Position numbers and translations under genes: made by a program. This document shows positions 7,319 through 49,623 of a stretch of 64,000 nucleotides of DNA, piece by piece. Under the pieces are notes generated by a model. It worked only from the letters and a program-made list of their open reading frames with translations. It searched no databases and had not been told where the DNA came from. The number at the start of each line of letters is the position of its first letter. The stretch's first letter is position 1. Origin of the DNA: Prosthecobacter gellanilyticus. Its GTDB lineage: Bacteria > Verrucomicrobiota > Verrucomicrobiia > Verrucomicrobiales > Verrucomicrobiaceae. The stretch covers positions 1-64,000 of the forward strand of contig NZ_BKAG01000013.1 in NCBI RefSeq assembly GCF_007992435.1, read 5' to 3'.

Positions 7319-9205
7319 ATGAAAACCCCTGCTCAGCAGCCCTCCGCCCTTCTGGAAGCCCTGGAACCTCGTCTGTCCCCGGCCGGGATTGTGACCGTCA
7401 GCGTCGCCGGAGGCGTGCTGACCCTGACGGGGGATGGGGCGGCCAACATGATCGAAATCGTCTCTTCCCATGCCAATGAGTGGCAGCTGCAGGATCCAAA
7501 TCTCGGCGAGCAGGACCCGTCATTGGATACCAAGTTTGTCTTTGCCGGGCAATCAGTCGACACGGCCGTCAAAGATCTGAAATTGCCCACCTACGCCGGC
7601 CTGAAAGTCGTGCTCAACGGTGGCAATGACAAGGTGGATGCGGTCAACCTCTTCACCAACGGCCCGGTGACACTCCAGGGCGGAGATGGCGATGACGACA
7701 TGTTCATCTCCGGCACCTACAACGGCGCCGTGAGCTTTGATGGAGGCAATGGCAACGATGACGTCGGTGTCTACGGCGGCTACATCAACGGCACCGTCAC
7801 GGCCAAAACCGGCGCGGGAAATGACACCGTCTATTTCGGTTCCGGAAACTACACCAAAGGCATCACGGCCGATCTCGGCACCGGGGACAACGTTTTCACC
7901 CTGCTCACCGACAACTCGTTGAATGTCTTTGGCAATATCAGCATCACCACCGCGGGTGGGGCTACCAATGAGCAGGACTACTACTTCGGTATCAAGAGCG
8001 GTGTCATCACGGGGAATGTGACCCTCAAAACGACTGCCGGAGCGGCCTACTACTTCCTCGGGCGGGATGCCAATGACGCCCTGCGCATCAATGGCAGCCT
8101 GAACATCACAGGCAGCGCAGGCGCTGACTCCATGCTTCTCGCAGGCAGCATCTCGATCGGCGGCGCGCTCACCGCCAGCCTGGGCGCGGGATCGAACGGG
8201 ATCTTCAATGGCATCGACACGAACAACAACGACGCCACCCGCCTGGTGCAGCTCACCCTCGGTTCACTGGCCTACACGGGCGGTGCGGGCAGGGACACGG
8301 TCTATCTGGAGTGCCCTGAGGTCGTCATCGGCGGAAATGTCGCCGCCACCATGGGTGCAGGTAAAAATGCCATGAGCTTCTTCAACAGCACGGGCACTTT
8401 CATCGGCGGTTCCCTCGCCTACACCGGCGGCACGGGCGATGACCGGTTCGACTTCGCAGGTGCTGCGGTGACGGTGGGCGGCAAGTTCACCTTCAAAGGC
8501 ATGGGCGCGCAGTCGCAGGATGCCGGTGCCGCGAACACTGACAGCGTCTTCATCTACTCCGACTATGCCGTCCTCCACACCGTGGAACTCATCGGAGGTG
8601 CCACAGGGAGGGACATCTTTCACCTCGGTGTCGCTGAGGGGGCAGACTTGAACTTCACCTCCACCCTCATCTCGGTTCTTGGCGACGTCATCACCAACAC
8701 CGGCGCTGGCTACAGCGATGTGGAGCTCACGGACACAATCGTCCACGGCAAGGTCACCCATACGAGCGCCGTCGCCGCCTCCACGGCTTCCGACTACTAC
8801 TTCATTGAGGATGGTTATGTCACCGGCGCCCTAACCATCAATGCTGCAGGAGCGGCCAATGCCCAGATCGTGATCAATGACACCCTCTGCATCTCCACGG
8901 TGACCATCACCACAGGTGCAGGTGACGACCGCGTGGATTTTGACACCCGAACCACCGAGAGCATCGGCATCTGCGTGTTCTATGGAGCGGTGAGCATCTC
9001 CCTCGGCACCGGCAATGATGACTGGGTGGCAGGCTGGAATCCCGTCACCGATACCGTGGGGAATAACTTCCGGAGCTCCGTCAAAGTCGATGGTGGCACC
9101 GGCAACAATCACTCCTACTACGGCCGCAACAGCAACTGGAACAACACCTTCGTCTACGATCCGGTGTTCCTCGGTGTGATGGCCTATGATCAGGCGGTGC
9201 CTTGA
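7319..9205 (+). CDS. LEPR-type secreted protein with RTX-like repeats
   Basis: This 628-residue protein starts with a short basic region and the motif LEALEPRLSPAG (residues 12-23). That resembles the LEPR N-terminal motif seen on surface-directed proteins of planctomycetes and verrucomicrobia. The rest is a long run of degenerate glycine/aspartate repeats (GGDGDDDMF, GAGNDTVYFG, GTGNDDWVAG) spaced about 20-40 residues apart, typical of calcium-binding RTX-like or beta-solenoid folds. There is no classic hydrophobic signal peptide. AGGGG is placed about 10 bases before the ATG. It is convergent with the DUF1501 gene (7-base gap). Probably a cell-surface or extracellular structural protein; function inferred only from composition. 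Confidence 0.8.
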   Translation: MKTPAQQPSALLEALEPRLSPAGIVTVSVAGGVLTLTGDGAANMIEIVSSHANEWQLQDPNLGEQDPSLDTKFVFAGQSVDTAVKDLKLPTYAGLKVVLNGGNDKVDAVNLFTNGPVTLQGGDGDDDMFISGTYNGAVSFDGGNGNDDVGVYGGYINGTVTAKTGAGNDTVYFGSGNYTKGITADLGTGDNVFTLLTDNSLNVFGNISITTAGGATNEQDYYFGIKSGVITGNVTLKTTAGAAYYFLGRDANDALRINGSLNITGSAGADSMLLAGSISIGGALTASLGAGSNGIFNGIDTNNNDATRLVQLTLGSLAYTGGAGRDTVYLECPEVVIGGNVAATMGAGKNAMSFFNSTGTFIGGSLAYTGGTGDDRFDFAGAAVTVGGKFTFKGMGAQSQDAGAANTDSVFIYSDYAVLHTVELIGGATGRDIFHLGVAEGADLNFTSTLISVLGDVITNTGAGYSDVELTDTIVHGKVTHTSAVAASTASDYYFIEDGYVTGALTINAAGAANAQIVINDTLCISTVTITTGAGDDRVDFDTRTTESIGICVFYGAVSISLGTGNDDWVAGWNPVTDTVGNNFRSSVKVDGGTGNNHSYYGRNSNWNNTFVYDPVFLGVMAYDQAVP

Positions 9206-9212
9206 GCCTCGC

Positions 9213-10664
9213 TCAAACCAGCACATCCTTCACCACATTTGCCTGCTCCACGCCGGTGAGACGGAAGTCCAGGCCCTGCGCTCTGAACGTGAAGCGCTCA
9301 TGCTCGATGCCGAGCAGATGCATCACGGTCGCATGCAAGTCACGCACATGCACGGGCTTCTCAGCCACGTTGTAGCTGAACTCGTCGGTTGAACCATAGG
9401 TTAGGCCTGGCTTCACACCGCCGCCTGCCATCCACATGGTGAAGCAGCGCGGATGATGGTCTCTTCCCGCCTCCGGGCTGTCCCATTTCCCCTGCCCTGC
9501 CACTCCGCGGCCAAACTCACCGCCCCAAATGACGAGGGTCTCGTCTAGCAGCCCGCGCTGCTTGAGATCCTTGATGAGGGCAGCACTCGGTTGATCCGTA
9601 TCTCGGCAACGCGCCGTGCACCAGCTCGGCAGACGGCTGTGATGATCCCAGTCTGGATGGAAGAGCTGGATGAACCTCACCCCGCGCTCCACGAGGCGAC
9701 GTGCCAGAATGCAGTTCGCCGCATAGCTGCCAGCTCTGCGTGAGTCCGGCCCATACATCTCAAAGACATGCTCCGGCTCCTCTCCCAGGTCGGTGAGCTC
9801 CGGCACGCTGGACTGCATACGATACGCCATCTCATACTGACGGATGCGCGTGAGGATCTCGGGATCCTGGGTCTTTTCGAAACGCTTTTGGTTAAGCTCG
9901 GCAAGCCCGTCCAGCATGCCCCGGCGCAGATGGCGCGGCAGCCCGTCTGGATCACTGAGATACAGCACCGGCTCCTTGGAATTGCGCAGCTTCACCCCCT
10001 GATAACGGCTCGGCAGGAAGCCGCTGCCCCAGTAATGATCATAGAGCGGCTGGTCGCTCGGGCGCTGCATCTTCGAGATCAGCACCAGATAGTCCGGCAG
10101 ATTGCGGTTCAAACTGCCCAGCCCATAGCTCACCCACGCGCCCATGCTCGGCTTGCCTGCGATCTGGTTCCCCGTGAGGAACAGCGTCATGGCCGGCGCA
10201 TGGTTGATCTGGTCCGTGGTCATCGACTTGATGAAGCACAGGTCATCCGCCACTCCTTGCAGATGCGGCAGCCACTCGCTGATCGTCGCGCCGCTCTGAC
10301 CACATTGGGAAAACTTCGTGATGCCCGGCAGGATGAGCTGCTTCTGGTTCGCCGTCATCGTCGTCAGACGCTGACCGTTGCGCACGGATTCCGGCAGTTC
10401 CACGCCCGCCCACTTCATCAGGCCCGGCTTGTGATCGTACAGCTCGAGCTGCGATGGCCCGCCGGACTGCGTGAGGAAGATGACCCGCTTCGCCTTCGGC
10501 GCGAAGTGCGGCAGTCCTGGAAGCCCGGGGACACCCGACTCCACCGCCCCTGCGCTGCCCATCATCGAACCCAGCGCCATCGCCCCCACCGAAACCCCGG
10601 TGCATTGCCCCAGGAAATAGCGGCGTGTGGTATGGAGAGATTCGTGCTGAGGGTGATCGAGCAT
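9213..10664 (-). CDS. Tat-exported DUF1501 domain protein
   Basis: The 483-residue product has a twin-arginine export signal (R14-R15 in TTRRYFLGQ, then a hydrophobic stretch to about residue 40). It continues with a DUF1501 body related to the sulfatase/alkaline-phosphatase fold. Typical elements are KRVIFLTQSGGPSQLELYDHKPG, WVSYGLGSLN, GGEFGR and RDHHPRCFTMWMAGGGVKPG. In planctomycetes and verrucomicrobia these proteins normally follow a DUF1549/DUF1553 cytochrome-type partner in an operon. Here neither neighbour is such a gene, so this copy is an orphan. Role in the periplasm unknown; polysaccharide degradation is often suggested from context elsewhere. Confidence 0.9.
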   Translation of the reverse strand: MLDHPQHESLHTTRRYFLGQCTGVSVGAMALGSMMGSAGAVESGVPGLPGLPHFAPKAKRVIFLTQSGGPSQLELYDHKPGLMKWAGVELPESVRNGQRLTTMTANQKQLILPGITKFSQCGQSGATISEWLPHLQGVADDLCFIKSMTTDQINHAPAMTLFLTGNQIAGKPSMGAWVSYGLGSLNRNLPDYLVLISKMQRPSDQPLYDHYWGSGFLPSRYQGVKLRNSKEPVLYLSDPDGLPRHLRRGMLDGLAELNQKRFEKTQDPEILTRIRQYEMAYRMQSSVPELTDLGEEPEHVFEMYGPDSRRAGSYAANCILARRLVERGVRFIQLFHPDWDHHSRLPSWCTARCRDTDQPSAALIKDLKQRGLLDETLVIWGGEFGRGVAGQGKWDSPEAGRDHHPRCFTMWMAGGGVKPGLTYGSTDEFSYNVAEKPVHVRDLHATVMHLLGIEHERFTFRAQGLDFRLTGVEQANVVKDVLV

Positions 10665-47133: not shown

Positions 47134-47583
47134 GAACGGACGGGAGAGGGATTTGACCGAACGTTCTGGATCAGGCGATGGCCAGCGGGAAGCGTCGGCG
47201 AGACGAGAGATGCCATAGGTGCCACTGACTGCATCCCTTTTGTTCGCCTTCTGGCGTAACTAGATTCTCATTCAGTCTGGCGCTGCTGAACAAGCGCCGC
47301 ATGAAGATAGGTGGCAGGAAGGACAATGCAAAAAAATCGCCATCTCTGGCAGGCTTTGTAGAATGATATCTGGTTAGCCGAAATCAGGTCTCCGGGAGTG
47401 TTCATCTAGCAATGCTTGAAGTCGGCACCATACAACTTATCAGCATATCCTTCTGCGTCTTCGCCATGATTTCTGGCCACATCGCACCGTGATATCGACT
47501 CATGAGGCACAGAATGCCGAGAAGTGGGGGCTTGTCTTTAACTGGCCTGGGGCACCAACGGAGTTTGATGGTGCCGATAACGA
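47134..47583. other. Intergenic region with a decayed copy of ccp 3' end
   Basis: This 450-base stretch holds no complete gene. Bases 47328-47403 are a degenerate copy of the end of the cytochrome c peroxidase gene (see the direct repeat). The right part, up to 47575, contains a short open stretch on the plus strand (AEKWGLVFNWPGAPTEF) with no start, which may be a gene fragment. A hairpin at 47551-47575 (GGCACCA with TGGTGCC) lies next to the YcaO stop. Confidence 0.55.
47328..47403 (+). repeat. Direct repeat copy B of ccp 3' end (decayed)
   Basis: Aligns with 49547-49623 over its whole length, in the same orientation, with roughly ten mismatches and small gaps. Both contain seven A, the terminator stem region and the block TGGTTAGCCGAAATCAGG. 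In this copy the terminator stem is broken by changes, most of them C-to-T and G-to-A, so this is the older, non-functional copy. It borders the YcaO islet on the left. Confidence 0.8.
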
Positions 47584-48888
47584 CTAGCCCGCAAAATCTT
47601 TCAAACTCGCCGGGAAGGTTGACTTGCAGTTCTTAACATTGAAAAAGCGGTCCTCTCCAGTGATGAATGTATGAGTCACTGTGATGCCATTCCCCAAGAC
47701 CCTAAGTTCGCTAGCATACGGCACTTCTCCGTTTTCATAAATCAGAGCAGTCAGTTGGGCCAGATACTCCTTGGGATCGTGTGAGAACGGAAGTGTGGAC
47801 AGATTATCGTACTCTACCGTTTCGCAACCAAGCGTCCGGCATTTCCACCCCATGTCAAACACGGCACAATCTTGATGTAACGGGAGTCCTTTGAGCCTTG
47901 TTTGTATGGCTTCGCTTTTGGATCTCAACCAGTCGAACCCAAAGATGTGCTTACTCAAAAGGAAGTACTGGGACAGTTCGTAAAGACATCTCAAGATCGC
48001 ATGTTCCGCAGAAAGGGAGCAACCATAGCCAGCTATACCAATTTTAAATTCATATTGTTCCATCCAACTGACATAGGCTGGCACGCCAAATTTGTTAGGC
48101 ATTTGGAATACAAATATCCTGCTGGAAATTTCCTCTTCCAGACGGCCAAAAACATCTCGGATGTTAGGCGGCAAGGTTAGCGGGTTGACCATCCGTAAAT
48201 AGTCTTTCTTGTTCTTCAGAAAGACATCTGCCAGGAATTTGGACAACGAAGTCCTTTCAATACCTTCAAGGAGACCGTGGATCACAGCCTCGTCGGCATT
48301 CATCCCGATTGCAGTCCCGGAATTCGTGGAATAGTGCTCCAGGCGCCCGTAGTTAAAGGTATCTTTTCGCCTTAGCTCCCCGTTCAGCAACTGGAGATCA
48401 ATATACTCTGGGCAAGTCAGCGCCAATGGATAGAAGCACGTCTGGCAGCCATTCACAGCGTGGTGTTTTAAAAACGGAATATCAGCACCTTCCCCGCCTT
48501 TTAAGAGAACTAACGGGAGCTGTTCGCACATGGGATTATCCCGACAATAATCCAGACTGTTCATGTAGAATATCTTGTCCGGATCGAGCGAATGGTAGTT
48601 CGATAACAGATGCTCTGTAGCTTCAAAAAGGCTGCCCGCGCGGGAGGCCATTAATTCTCCTTTGCCATTTCCCGAGGCAAGGAACTTGCCGCTCTTTTTA
48701 TCAGTGATGGAACATTTAGCCGTGTGGATAAATTCACCAGCAATCTCAATGTCGTAATTCAAGCCGAGGGCTTCAAGCTCCTCCAGCAACGCTGCTTCCG
48801 CGTCCAGTAAAGAATAAGACCTTTCGATGGGGATACCTGTCATTGAATATGAGACGGGGAGAAGACAAAAAATAACAGAGTCCGTCAT
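47584..48888 (-). CDS. YcaO-family ATP-dependent peptide-modifying enzyme
   Basis: A 434-residue YcaO protein. YcaO enzymes activate peptide backbone amides with ATP to form azolines, thioamides or amidines in natural peptides (RiPPs) or in proteins such as ribosomal protein S12 and McrA. Three family motifs are present: GNGKG with GSLFEATEHL (E89, E92), NSGTAIGMNADEAVIHGLLE with GIER (E208, E211), and YGCSLSAEHAILRCLYELSQ (E304, Q307). The usual Arg after E92 is His (EATEH). No E1-like or TfuA partner is next to it. Base composition and codon use are visibly AT-richer than neighbours, indicating transfer. The start may instead be the in-frame ATG at 48843. Confidence 0.85.
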   Translation of the reverse strand: MTDSVIFCLLPVSYSMTGIPIERSYSLLDAEAALLEELEALGLNYDIEIAGEFIHTAKCSITDKKSGKFLASGNGKGELMASRAGSLFEATEHLLSNYHSLDPDKIFYMNSLDYCRDNPMCEQLPLVLLKGGEGADIPFLKHHAVNGCQTCFYPLALTCPEYIDLQLLNGELRRKDTFNYGRLEHYSTNSGTAIGMNADEAVIHGLLEGIERTSLSKFLADVFLKNKKDYLRMVNPLTLPPNIRDVFGRLEEEISSRIFVFQMPNKFGVPAYVSWMEQYEFKIGIAGYGCSLSAEHAILRCLYELSQYFLLSKHIFGFDWLRSKSEAIQTRLKGLPLHQDCAVFDMGWKCRTLGCETVEYDNLSTLPFSHDPKEYLAQLTALIYENGEVPYASELRVLGNGITVTHTFITGEDRFFNVKNCKSTFPASLKDFAG

Positions 48889-48996
48889 TTTTTGGTGAAC
48901 TGCGGCACACTACACATCCAAGTGCAGCGCTCCTCTCAGTGAAATGAGGAATTTTTTGTTCGGCGGGAGTTTAATACGTGCGCAGTTGCCCAAGAA

Positions 48997-49032
48997 CCGC
49001 GGCTGAACGCATCGAAATCAGTTCAGCCGCGG
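48997..49032 (-). terminator. Strong hairpin between small ORF and YcaO gene
   Basis: CCGCGGCTGAAC (48997-49008) pairs perfectly with GTTCAGCCGCGG (49021-49032) around 12 bases. It lies 20 bases after the stop of the 71-residue ORF and about 110 bases before the YcaO start, on the same strand. There is no long T-tract, so it may be an attenuator or mRNA-stabilising hairpin rather than a full terminator. Confidence 0.65.
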
Positions 49033-49051
49033 GAAGGAATGGCATTCAAAG

Positions 49052-49267
49052 CTATTTCTCCTGACGGAAATCTTTCCCCTCGCGGCAATCTCTTGCTACT
49101 TTCTCTGCAATTTCGTTAATCAATTTTAACATATTCGCCTCAAAACCAGCCAACTCCTCTCGAGAAATCGAATCTTTGCCGCGAGCAGCAATATCGTACG
49201 GTTTCGGGTCATCATGAACTTTGCCGGGCCATGACAGAGTAGAAAAATCATTAACTACGCTTCCCAT
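49052..49267 (-). CDS. Small ORF upstream of YcaO, unknown
   Basis: A 71-residue ORF, MGSVVNDFSTLSWPGKVHDD..., on the same strand as the YcaO gene and 163 bases upstream of it. The second half is predicted helical and charged (EELAGFEANMLKLINEIAEKVARD). It holds one cysteine and few residues of the kind usually modified (Cys, Ser, Thr), so it is not a typical thiazole/oxazole precursor. Its AT-rich base use matches the YcaO gene, not the flanking genes. It could be a precursor, a leader-binding protein or an unrelated small protein. No Shine-Dalgarno is evident. Confidence 0.45.
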   Translation of the reverse strand: MGSVVNDFSTLSWPGKVHDDPKPYDIAARGKDSISREELAGFEANMLKLINEIAEKVARDCREGKDFRQEK

Positions 49268-49604
49268 ATGGATAAAGTTTTTTGATTGTTGGGAGATTTC
49301 TCCTTCAAGCCCCGCTGGTCGATCGCTCGCACTTGACGAGTTTAGTTCATTGGAGAGAAAGAGAGAGGAAGACCCTCATCACACTGATAAGCTAGACCGT
49401 AGTCTCTCTGACTGTCAAGCGCCGTCTTTATTTCCTTGTAGATCCTTTTTCGAGGGGGTGGCATCCGCACTATTTAGAGCCCATTAAAACACTTCAAAGT
49501 TCATCCAACAAAAATCCCCCAACCGAACCATGCGTATCAAGGCATGGCAAAAAAAGCCCGCCATTTCTGGCGGGCTTCGTGGAATGATCACTGGTTAGCC
49601 GAAA
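49268..49604. other. Intergenic region at the right edge of the YcaO islet
   Basis: This 337-base stretch holds no recognisable gene. Its left part is AT-richer and belongs to the islet; it may hold the promoter of the 71-residue ORF (TTGACA on the minus strand at 49413-49418, without a good -10). Its right part has the peroxidase terminator. Confidence 0.5.
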
Positions 49605-49623
49605 TCAGGCCTTCGGGGTGTTC
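49547..49623 (+). repeat. Direct repeat copy A (functional ccp 3' end)
   Basis: The intact counterpart of the degenerate copy at 47328-47403. It includes the last codons of the cytochrome c peroxidase gene, its stop and its terminator. Same orientation as copy B, about 2.2 kb apart, with the YcaO islet between. Confidence 0.8.
49549..49580 (-). terminator. Terminator of the cytochrome c peroxidase gene
   Basis: GCCCGCC (49556-49562) pairs with GGCGGGC (49568-49574) around a short loop. On the minus strand it is followed by a run of seven T. It lies about 30 bases beyond the stop at 49605. Confidence 0.92.

Follow-up and report, generated by a model that had tools for sequence, protein, structure and literature searches.

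A stand-alone YcaO gene and a small Met-Gly reading frame in Prosthecobacter gellanilyticus: a possible minimal bottromycin-type module

The amidine-forming YcaO pathways characterized so far are few, namely those of bottromycin, klebsazolicin and streptamidine (PMC8442711). In bottromycin biosynthesis, BtmF acts with BtmI to form the macroamidine, Gly1 attacking the amide at Val4, the follower of the precursor seems to be needed, BtmE is implicated in the thiazoline, and the MGP start of the precursor needs a dedicated peptidase (PMC5103208). The streptamidine system (AmiA/AmiD) also forms an N-terminal amidine in a YcaO-dependent manner; there a hydrolase takes off the leader, the gene set includes the E1-like partner AmiB as well as a dehydrogenase and transporters, and the C-terminus of AmiD is proline-rich (PMC8442711). 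Stand-alone actinobacterial YcaOs have already been mined for RiPPs (PMC8442711, PMC4603692), and one of these two reports warns that such mining overlooks clusters in which a stand-alone YcaO goes with an unusual precursor.

Here we describe a pair of genes in a 64,000-nt stretch of DNA from Prosthecobacter gellanilyticus (hereafter the window), which we tentatively read, with a probability of roughly 0.45, as a minimal bottromycin-type RiPP module, a leaderless precursor with an amidine-forming YcaO that closes an N-terminal ring. The features of the locus, in window coordinates, are as follows.

47330..47396, no strand: left direct repeat copy, a truncated second copy of the 3' end of mauG
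47397..49550, no strand: low-GC island with both genes, the stretch between the direct repeats
47584..48888, minus strand: YcaO gene (434 aa), stand-alone, predicted ATP-dependent peptide modifier; alternative start Met16 at 48843
48997..49032, minus strand: hairpin, 12-bp perfect, between the precursor-like ORF and the YcaO gene
49052..49267, minus strand: 71-aa ORF, probable leaderless precursor, with N-terminal core (Met)GSVVNDF... and follower-like C-terminal part (ISREELAGFEANML...)
49551..49617, no strand: right direct repeat copy, native, consisting of the terminator and last codons of a MauG/CCP-like gene (PF03150, di-haem peroxidase)

The YcaO protein matched PF02624 (3.2e-18, 66.6 bits against a cut-off of 25.7), which places it in the YcaO superfamily. 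The three ATP-site motif pairs that the first-pass annotation had read in it, E89/E92, E208/E211 and E304/Q307, are present and were invariant in an alignment of six members of its family (see below). The AlphaFold (AF2) model, with 28 family sequences as input, had a pLDDT of 88 and a pTM of 0.91, and the significant PDB matches of a structure search with this model were without exception YcaOs or YcaO-domain cyclodehydratases. Model confidence was low at residues 1-17, and therefore the real start may be Met16. According to a whole-genome search, this is the single YcaO of the genome, and its identity to family members is about 22-30%. In single-protein scans, the genome, viral, phage and plasmid collections gave no relative nearer than about 30%; a search of the protein against 56 relatives yielded no further member, and neither did family profiles run against 388 genomes from the phylum and 387 from the order. 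Neither the YcaO nor the 71-aa ORF matched a defence-system library.

Distant relatives of the YcaO, gathered by tblastn and pattern scans, occur in Actinomycetota, Pseudomonadota, Bacillota and Paceibacterota. Under fixed criteria, an upstream small ORF with a Met-Gly start was present at 31 of 40 family loci against 2 of 46 other YcaO loci, and any second residue other than Gly was found at three loci at most. The window is itself one of the 40 loci and fell outside the 31; of the other exceptions, two had GTG starts, one had a weak ribosome site, one (L033) started with MS, two were mycobacterial, and a further two lacked a candidate. In the relatives, the Met-Gly ORF often overlaps the YcaO start. 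The peptide reads MGNVVDYVxVESLDRxxQHLTxAELxRLEELL in Nonomuraea and its kin, MGNSNSNGxSLLKPDG in Streptosporangium, and MGxKRSEIN in Vibrio, with a similar one in Ligilactobacillus. Because such short peptides link at 30% identity, independent Met-Gly cases are uncountable by clustering, and common descent may lie behind part of the conservation. In 18 actinobacterial loci, a conserved NACHT/STAND NTPase gene of roughly 700 aa lies downstream of the YcaO gene, usually close to it, so that a three-gene module of Met-Gly peptide, YcaO and NACHT is seen in Actinobacteria.

7277-9481 of L018, same strand as the YcaO gene: NACHT/STAND NTPase; also in L003, L009-L012, L015, L017, L019, L021-L026, L028, L029 and L035

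PF05729 was found in the three NACHT proteins that were scanned, and the PADLOC matches were weak. In the literature, supplementary tables aside, we found neither the cross-phylum Met-Gly family nor the peptide-YcaO-NACHT arrangement described.

To place this Met-Gly (MG) family relative to bottromycin, two bottromycin clusters were located with NF033414 and both YcaOs of each were read, the second after the precursor being taken as BtmF and the first as BtmE by gene order. The family HMM scored the YcaO at the BtmF position at 174 bits, which is within the range of the MG family, and that at the BtmE position at 14-21 bits; scores were 24-34 for the SagD rows, 17 for E. coli YcaO and about 50-73 for archaeal YcaOs. 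In a 41-row maximum-likelihood tree, a branch supported at 96/94 separated the window YcaO, the MG family and the BtmF-type proteins from E. coli, SagD, archaeal and TfuA-partner YcaOs, where the SagD rows were those ending in PxPxP (verified rows end PHPFP) and the TfuA-partner rows were five YcaOs with verified TfuA neighbours. A 71-row tree agreed for the E. coli, archaeal and TfuA-partner YcaOs (97/97). The window YcaO thus lies on the BtmF-type side, where BtmF is not its sister and the exact sister is unsure; it sits on a long branch, and its nearest neighbour, L033, whose small ORF starts with MS, is weakly placed and also on a long branch. The phylogeny that the first-pass annotation had recommended as a check gave no grouping with ribosomal-protein or housekeeping modifiers.

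With the YcaOs on the opposite side of the tree (E. coli, TfuA-partner, archaeal McrA-thioamidation YcaOs and SagD), the window protein shares the fold and the ATP-site residues. With regard to the TOMM azoline-forming class, it has no adjacent E1/Ocin-ThiF partner, its C-terminus lacks PxPxP, and the SagD model gave 44 bits against a cut-off of 219. The model for McrA-glycine thioamidation (TIGR03266) gave 37.5 bits against 365, and NF040716, for the RimO-partner (S12) class, gave no match. The first-pass annotation had seen no E1-like cyclodehydratase, TfuA or transporter nearby, and this was borne out at the adjacent genes, where E1-like, TfuA (PF07812), leader peptidase and peptide exporter genes were sought and none was found. 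The neighbours are housekeeping genes, encoding MauG/CCP, DUF1275, GNAT, MgtE, NTP transferase and RNA methyltransferase proteins and a Pfam-less membrane protein.

The 71-aa ORF was, as the first-pass annotation had it, like the YcaO gene in strand and base composition: both are on the minus strand, its GC of 0.44 is in line with the island, and its codon usage resembles that of the YcaO gene (equally good shuffles, 0.3%). Judged by these features, the ORF reads like a real gene. It has no Shine-Dalgarno sequence, and the same holds for 26 of the 35 presumptive genes of the window, the other 9 having one. Its N-terminus, MGSVVNDF, shares G-x-V-V with the bottromycin precursor (MGPVVVFD) and the Nonomuraea-type peptides (MGNVVDYV). 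When 1,329 small ORFs were ranked by mean N-anchored score against 32 family precursors, it came first; shuffled versions scored as well in 19 of 2000 cases with M fixed and in 185 of 2000 (9%) with MG fixed, and the chance of a Met-Gly start is about 7% per ORF. A precursor HMM run on the window and the genome did not detect it, and NF033414 gave zero matches at E <= 10 against it and five relatives. In addition, the peptides of the relatives are shorter, at 34-60 aa, and a 163-bp gap with the hairpin, without translational coupling, separates the 71-aa ORF from the YcaO gene. Although the relatives keep a small upstream ORF, which answers the first-pass doubt that homologues might never retain one, the 71-aa sequence as such was not found elsewhere, and its likeness to the family is limited to the start, the position and the follower-like part. 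Kinship with the family precursors is therefore stated here as suggestive, and we consider it on balance likely that this ORF is the substrate of the window YcaO. Another candidate precursor, a 27-aa TTG ORF (MGNCARIKL..., 48910-48993, minus strand), was rejected; it begins directly past the hairpin, has no follower and had a mean score of 1.3 versus 5.5.

Compared with bottromycin (precursor BtmD, NF033414), the window ORF has the same Met-Gly start and, if it is the precursor, a similar layout of N-terminal GxVV core and C-terminal follower, would be leaderless, and has a putative core that is not rich in Ser, Thr or Cys; the stand-alone YcaO lies on the same side of the 96/94 branch as BtmF. 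The window differs in having one YcaO instead of two, which is only about 24% identical, in lacking adjacent radical SAM methyltransferases, P450, O-methyltransferase, M17 peptidase and amidohydrolase, and in a putative precursor without Pro2 and without an NF033414 match. Streptamidine likewise has a precursor that is not Ser/Thr/Cys-rich, and its amidine would have a counterpart in the window by analogy; the leader, partner, dehydrogenase and transporters of that system, and the proline-rich C-terminus of its YcaO, set it apart from the window. Like the Nonomuraea-type operons, the window has an upstream Met-Gly peptide and a homologous stand-alone YcaO, whereas those operons usually have the stop of the peptide gene overlapping or directly next to the YcaO start, with the NACHT/STAND NTPase coming next, and the window has neither feature. 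The small ORF, with its few modifiable residues, had been proposed as perhaps a new kind of substrate or partner. The substrate role is supported by the small ORFs of the family, and the residues are few indeed (5 Ser, 1 Thr, 1 Cys); the substrate is probably not wholly new, being bottromycin-like, and the scarcity is what is expected of bottromycin-type precursors, whose core is the N-terminus and in which the amine of the first Gly closes the ring in place of Cys, Ser or Thr.

The bottromycin-type reading, in which amidine chemistry, ring size, follower trimming and the substrate role of the ORF are all drawn by analogy, would proceed as follows. The 71-aa peptide would be translated without a leader and its Met taken off, exposing Gly1. 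Methionine aminopeptidases cleave well before G-S but not before the G-P of bottromycin, and with Ser in place of Pro at the third position an ordinary methionine aminopeptidase should suffice. The C-terminal half would serve as the follower bound by the YcaO, which with ATP would activate the carbonyl of a backbone amide a little way into the peptide (Val4 of G1-S2-V3-V4, if bottromycin is a guide); the Gly1 amine would then attack the activated amide to give a (macro)amidine ring, and host proteases would later trim the follower. A leaderless amidine design would account for the few Cys, Ser and Thr residues and for the missing partner and leader peptidase, and together with a Met removable by an ordinary aminopeptidase it means that two genes could suffice. 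The weakest point is the amidohydrolase: formation of the amidine in bottromycin requires BtmI as well, and no BtmI-like gene is adjacent here. The first-pass idea of a minimal peptide-modification system gains support from the retention of a small upstream ORF in relatives and from the position of the enzyme outside the housekeeping YcaOs.

The same pair might instead perform other chemistry, the YcaO converting a Ser, Thr or Cys of the 71-aa peptide to an azoline, or installing a thioamide in it. The YcaOs have one ATP chemistry in common, the other stand-alone YcaO of bottromycin makes a thiazoline (PMC8442711), and the peptide does contain the residues for it. Nevertheless, the window YcaO is apart from the SagD azoline formers and the TfuA-partner thioamidating YcaOs in the tree, the BtmE-type score with the family HMM is low, and both an adjacent TfuA and a PxPxP tail are lacking, and we regard this alternative as unlikely.

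It is also conceivable, if rather doubtful, that the YcaO has another target, either a cellular protein or a peptide whose gene lies elsewhere, and that the 71-aa ORF is an unrelated passenger of the island, as its lack of coupling, the failure of the precursor HMM and the frequency of chance Met-Gly starts would allow. Against this, a small upstream ORF is family-wide, the two genes share island, strand and codon usage, the YcaO is outside the housekeeping clade, and in the rest of the genome the precursor HMM gave no hit with an E-value below 0.8. It seems improbable that the pair is a relic, left from a larger RiPP cluster whose exporter, immunity and tailoring genes did not come along, and without any product. 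The other pathway genes are absent, a single species among those sampled in the order has the pair, and the branch is long, but the YcaO frame is open, its catalytic residues are complete and its model is well folded, and codon structure is maintained in the small ORF.

GC content is 0.46-0.49 across roughly 47250-49500 and about 0.60 in the flanks, and the island is flanked by the direct repeats (67 bp, imperfect, 84% identical). The mauG-like gene and its terminator are kept in two relatives (L142 and L144), with collinearity stopping at 49546-49549. From the low GC, the bracketing repeat and this end of similarity, the two genes probably came in together on a cassette some 2.2 kb long, and the YcaO was probably acquired horizontally. 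The list of ORFs showed no integrase or transposase inside the island, and comparison with the relatives gave no exact empty site, since mauG and the terminator are shared but the downstream DNA differs. The hairpin between the genes (fold of 48885-49060, minus strand, z = -3.85) has one copy in the genome, which rules out a repeated element, and is not a classical terminator because it has no T-run; it is possibly an attenuator or processing site favouring the precursor over the enzyme.

If the reading as a leaderless precursor with an amidine-forming YcaO is true, one enzyme and one peptide would make the simplest amidine-forming system, easily assayed and useful for N-terminal ring closure. 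A Met-Gly peptide beside a BtmF-type YcaO would also be a simple rule for precursors overlooked by Ser/Thr/Cys-based genome mining, and the family would connect NACHT-type genes of Actinobacteria with enzymes of the bottromycin kind. Because a NACHT NTPase follows many actinobacterial members, the peptide, once its ring is closed, may serve inside the cell as a signal or conflict effector, not as a secreted antibiotic; the full proposal, with a complete two-gene amidine RiPP outside Actinobacteria and a large undescribed cross-phylum family of Met-Gly peptides with a single BtmF-type YcaO, is speculative and rather unlikely.

Several family loci have other genes in context. In Streptomyces regalis (L020, 2270-6019), a P450 and an O-methyltransferase, tailoring types as in bottromycin, adjoin the MG-peptide YcaO. 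Loci with MGxKRSEIN-like peptides have a Fic protein in a Paceibacterota bin (L034, 5792-8504), a LytTR regulator in Ligilactobacillus (L040, 5644-7781) and an ABC transporter in Vibrio plasmids (L006 and L007, around 7700-10500). In the two mycobacterial loci (L013, 5841-5960; L032, 5828-5962), a follower-like LTxAEQ peptide is N-terminally extended and lacks a clear Met-Gly start, and these peptides are possibly leader-bearing. A related YcaO fragment from the viral collection (L008, 1-797) lies at a contig end, which cuts off the upstream ORF, among phage-like genes, hinting at prophage-linked transfer.
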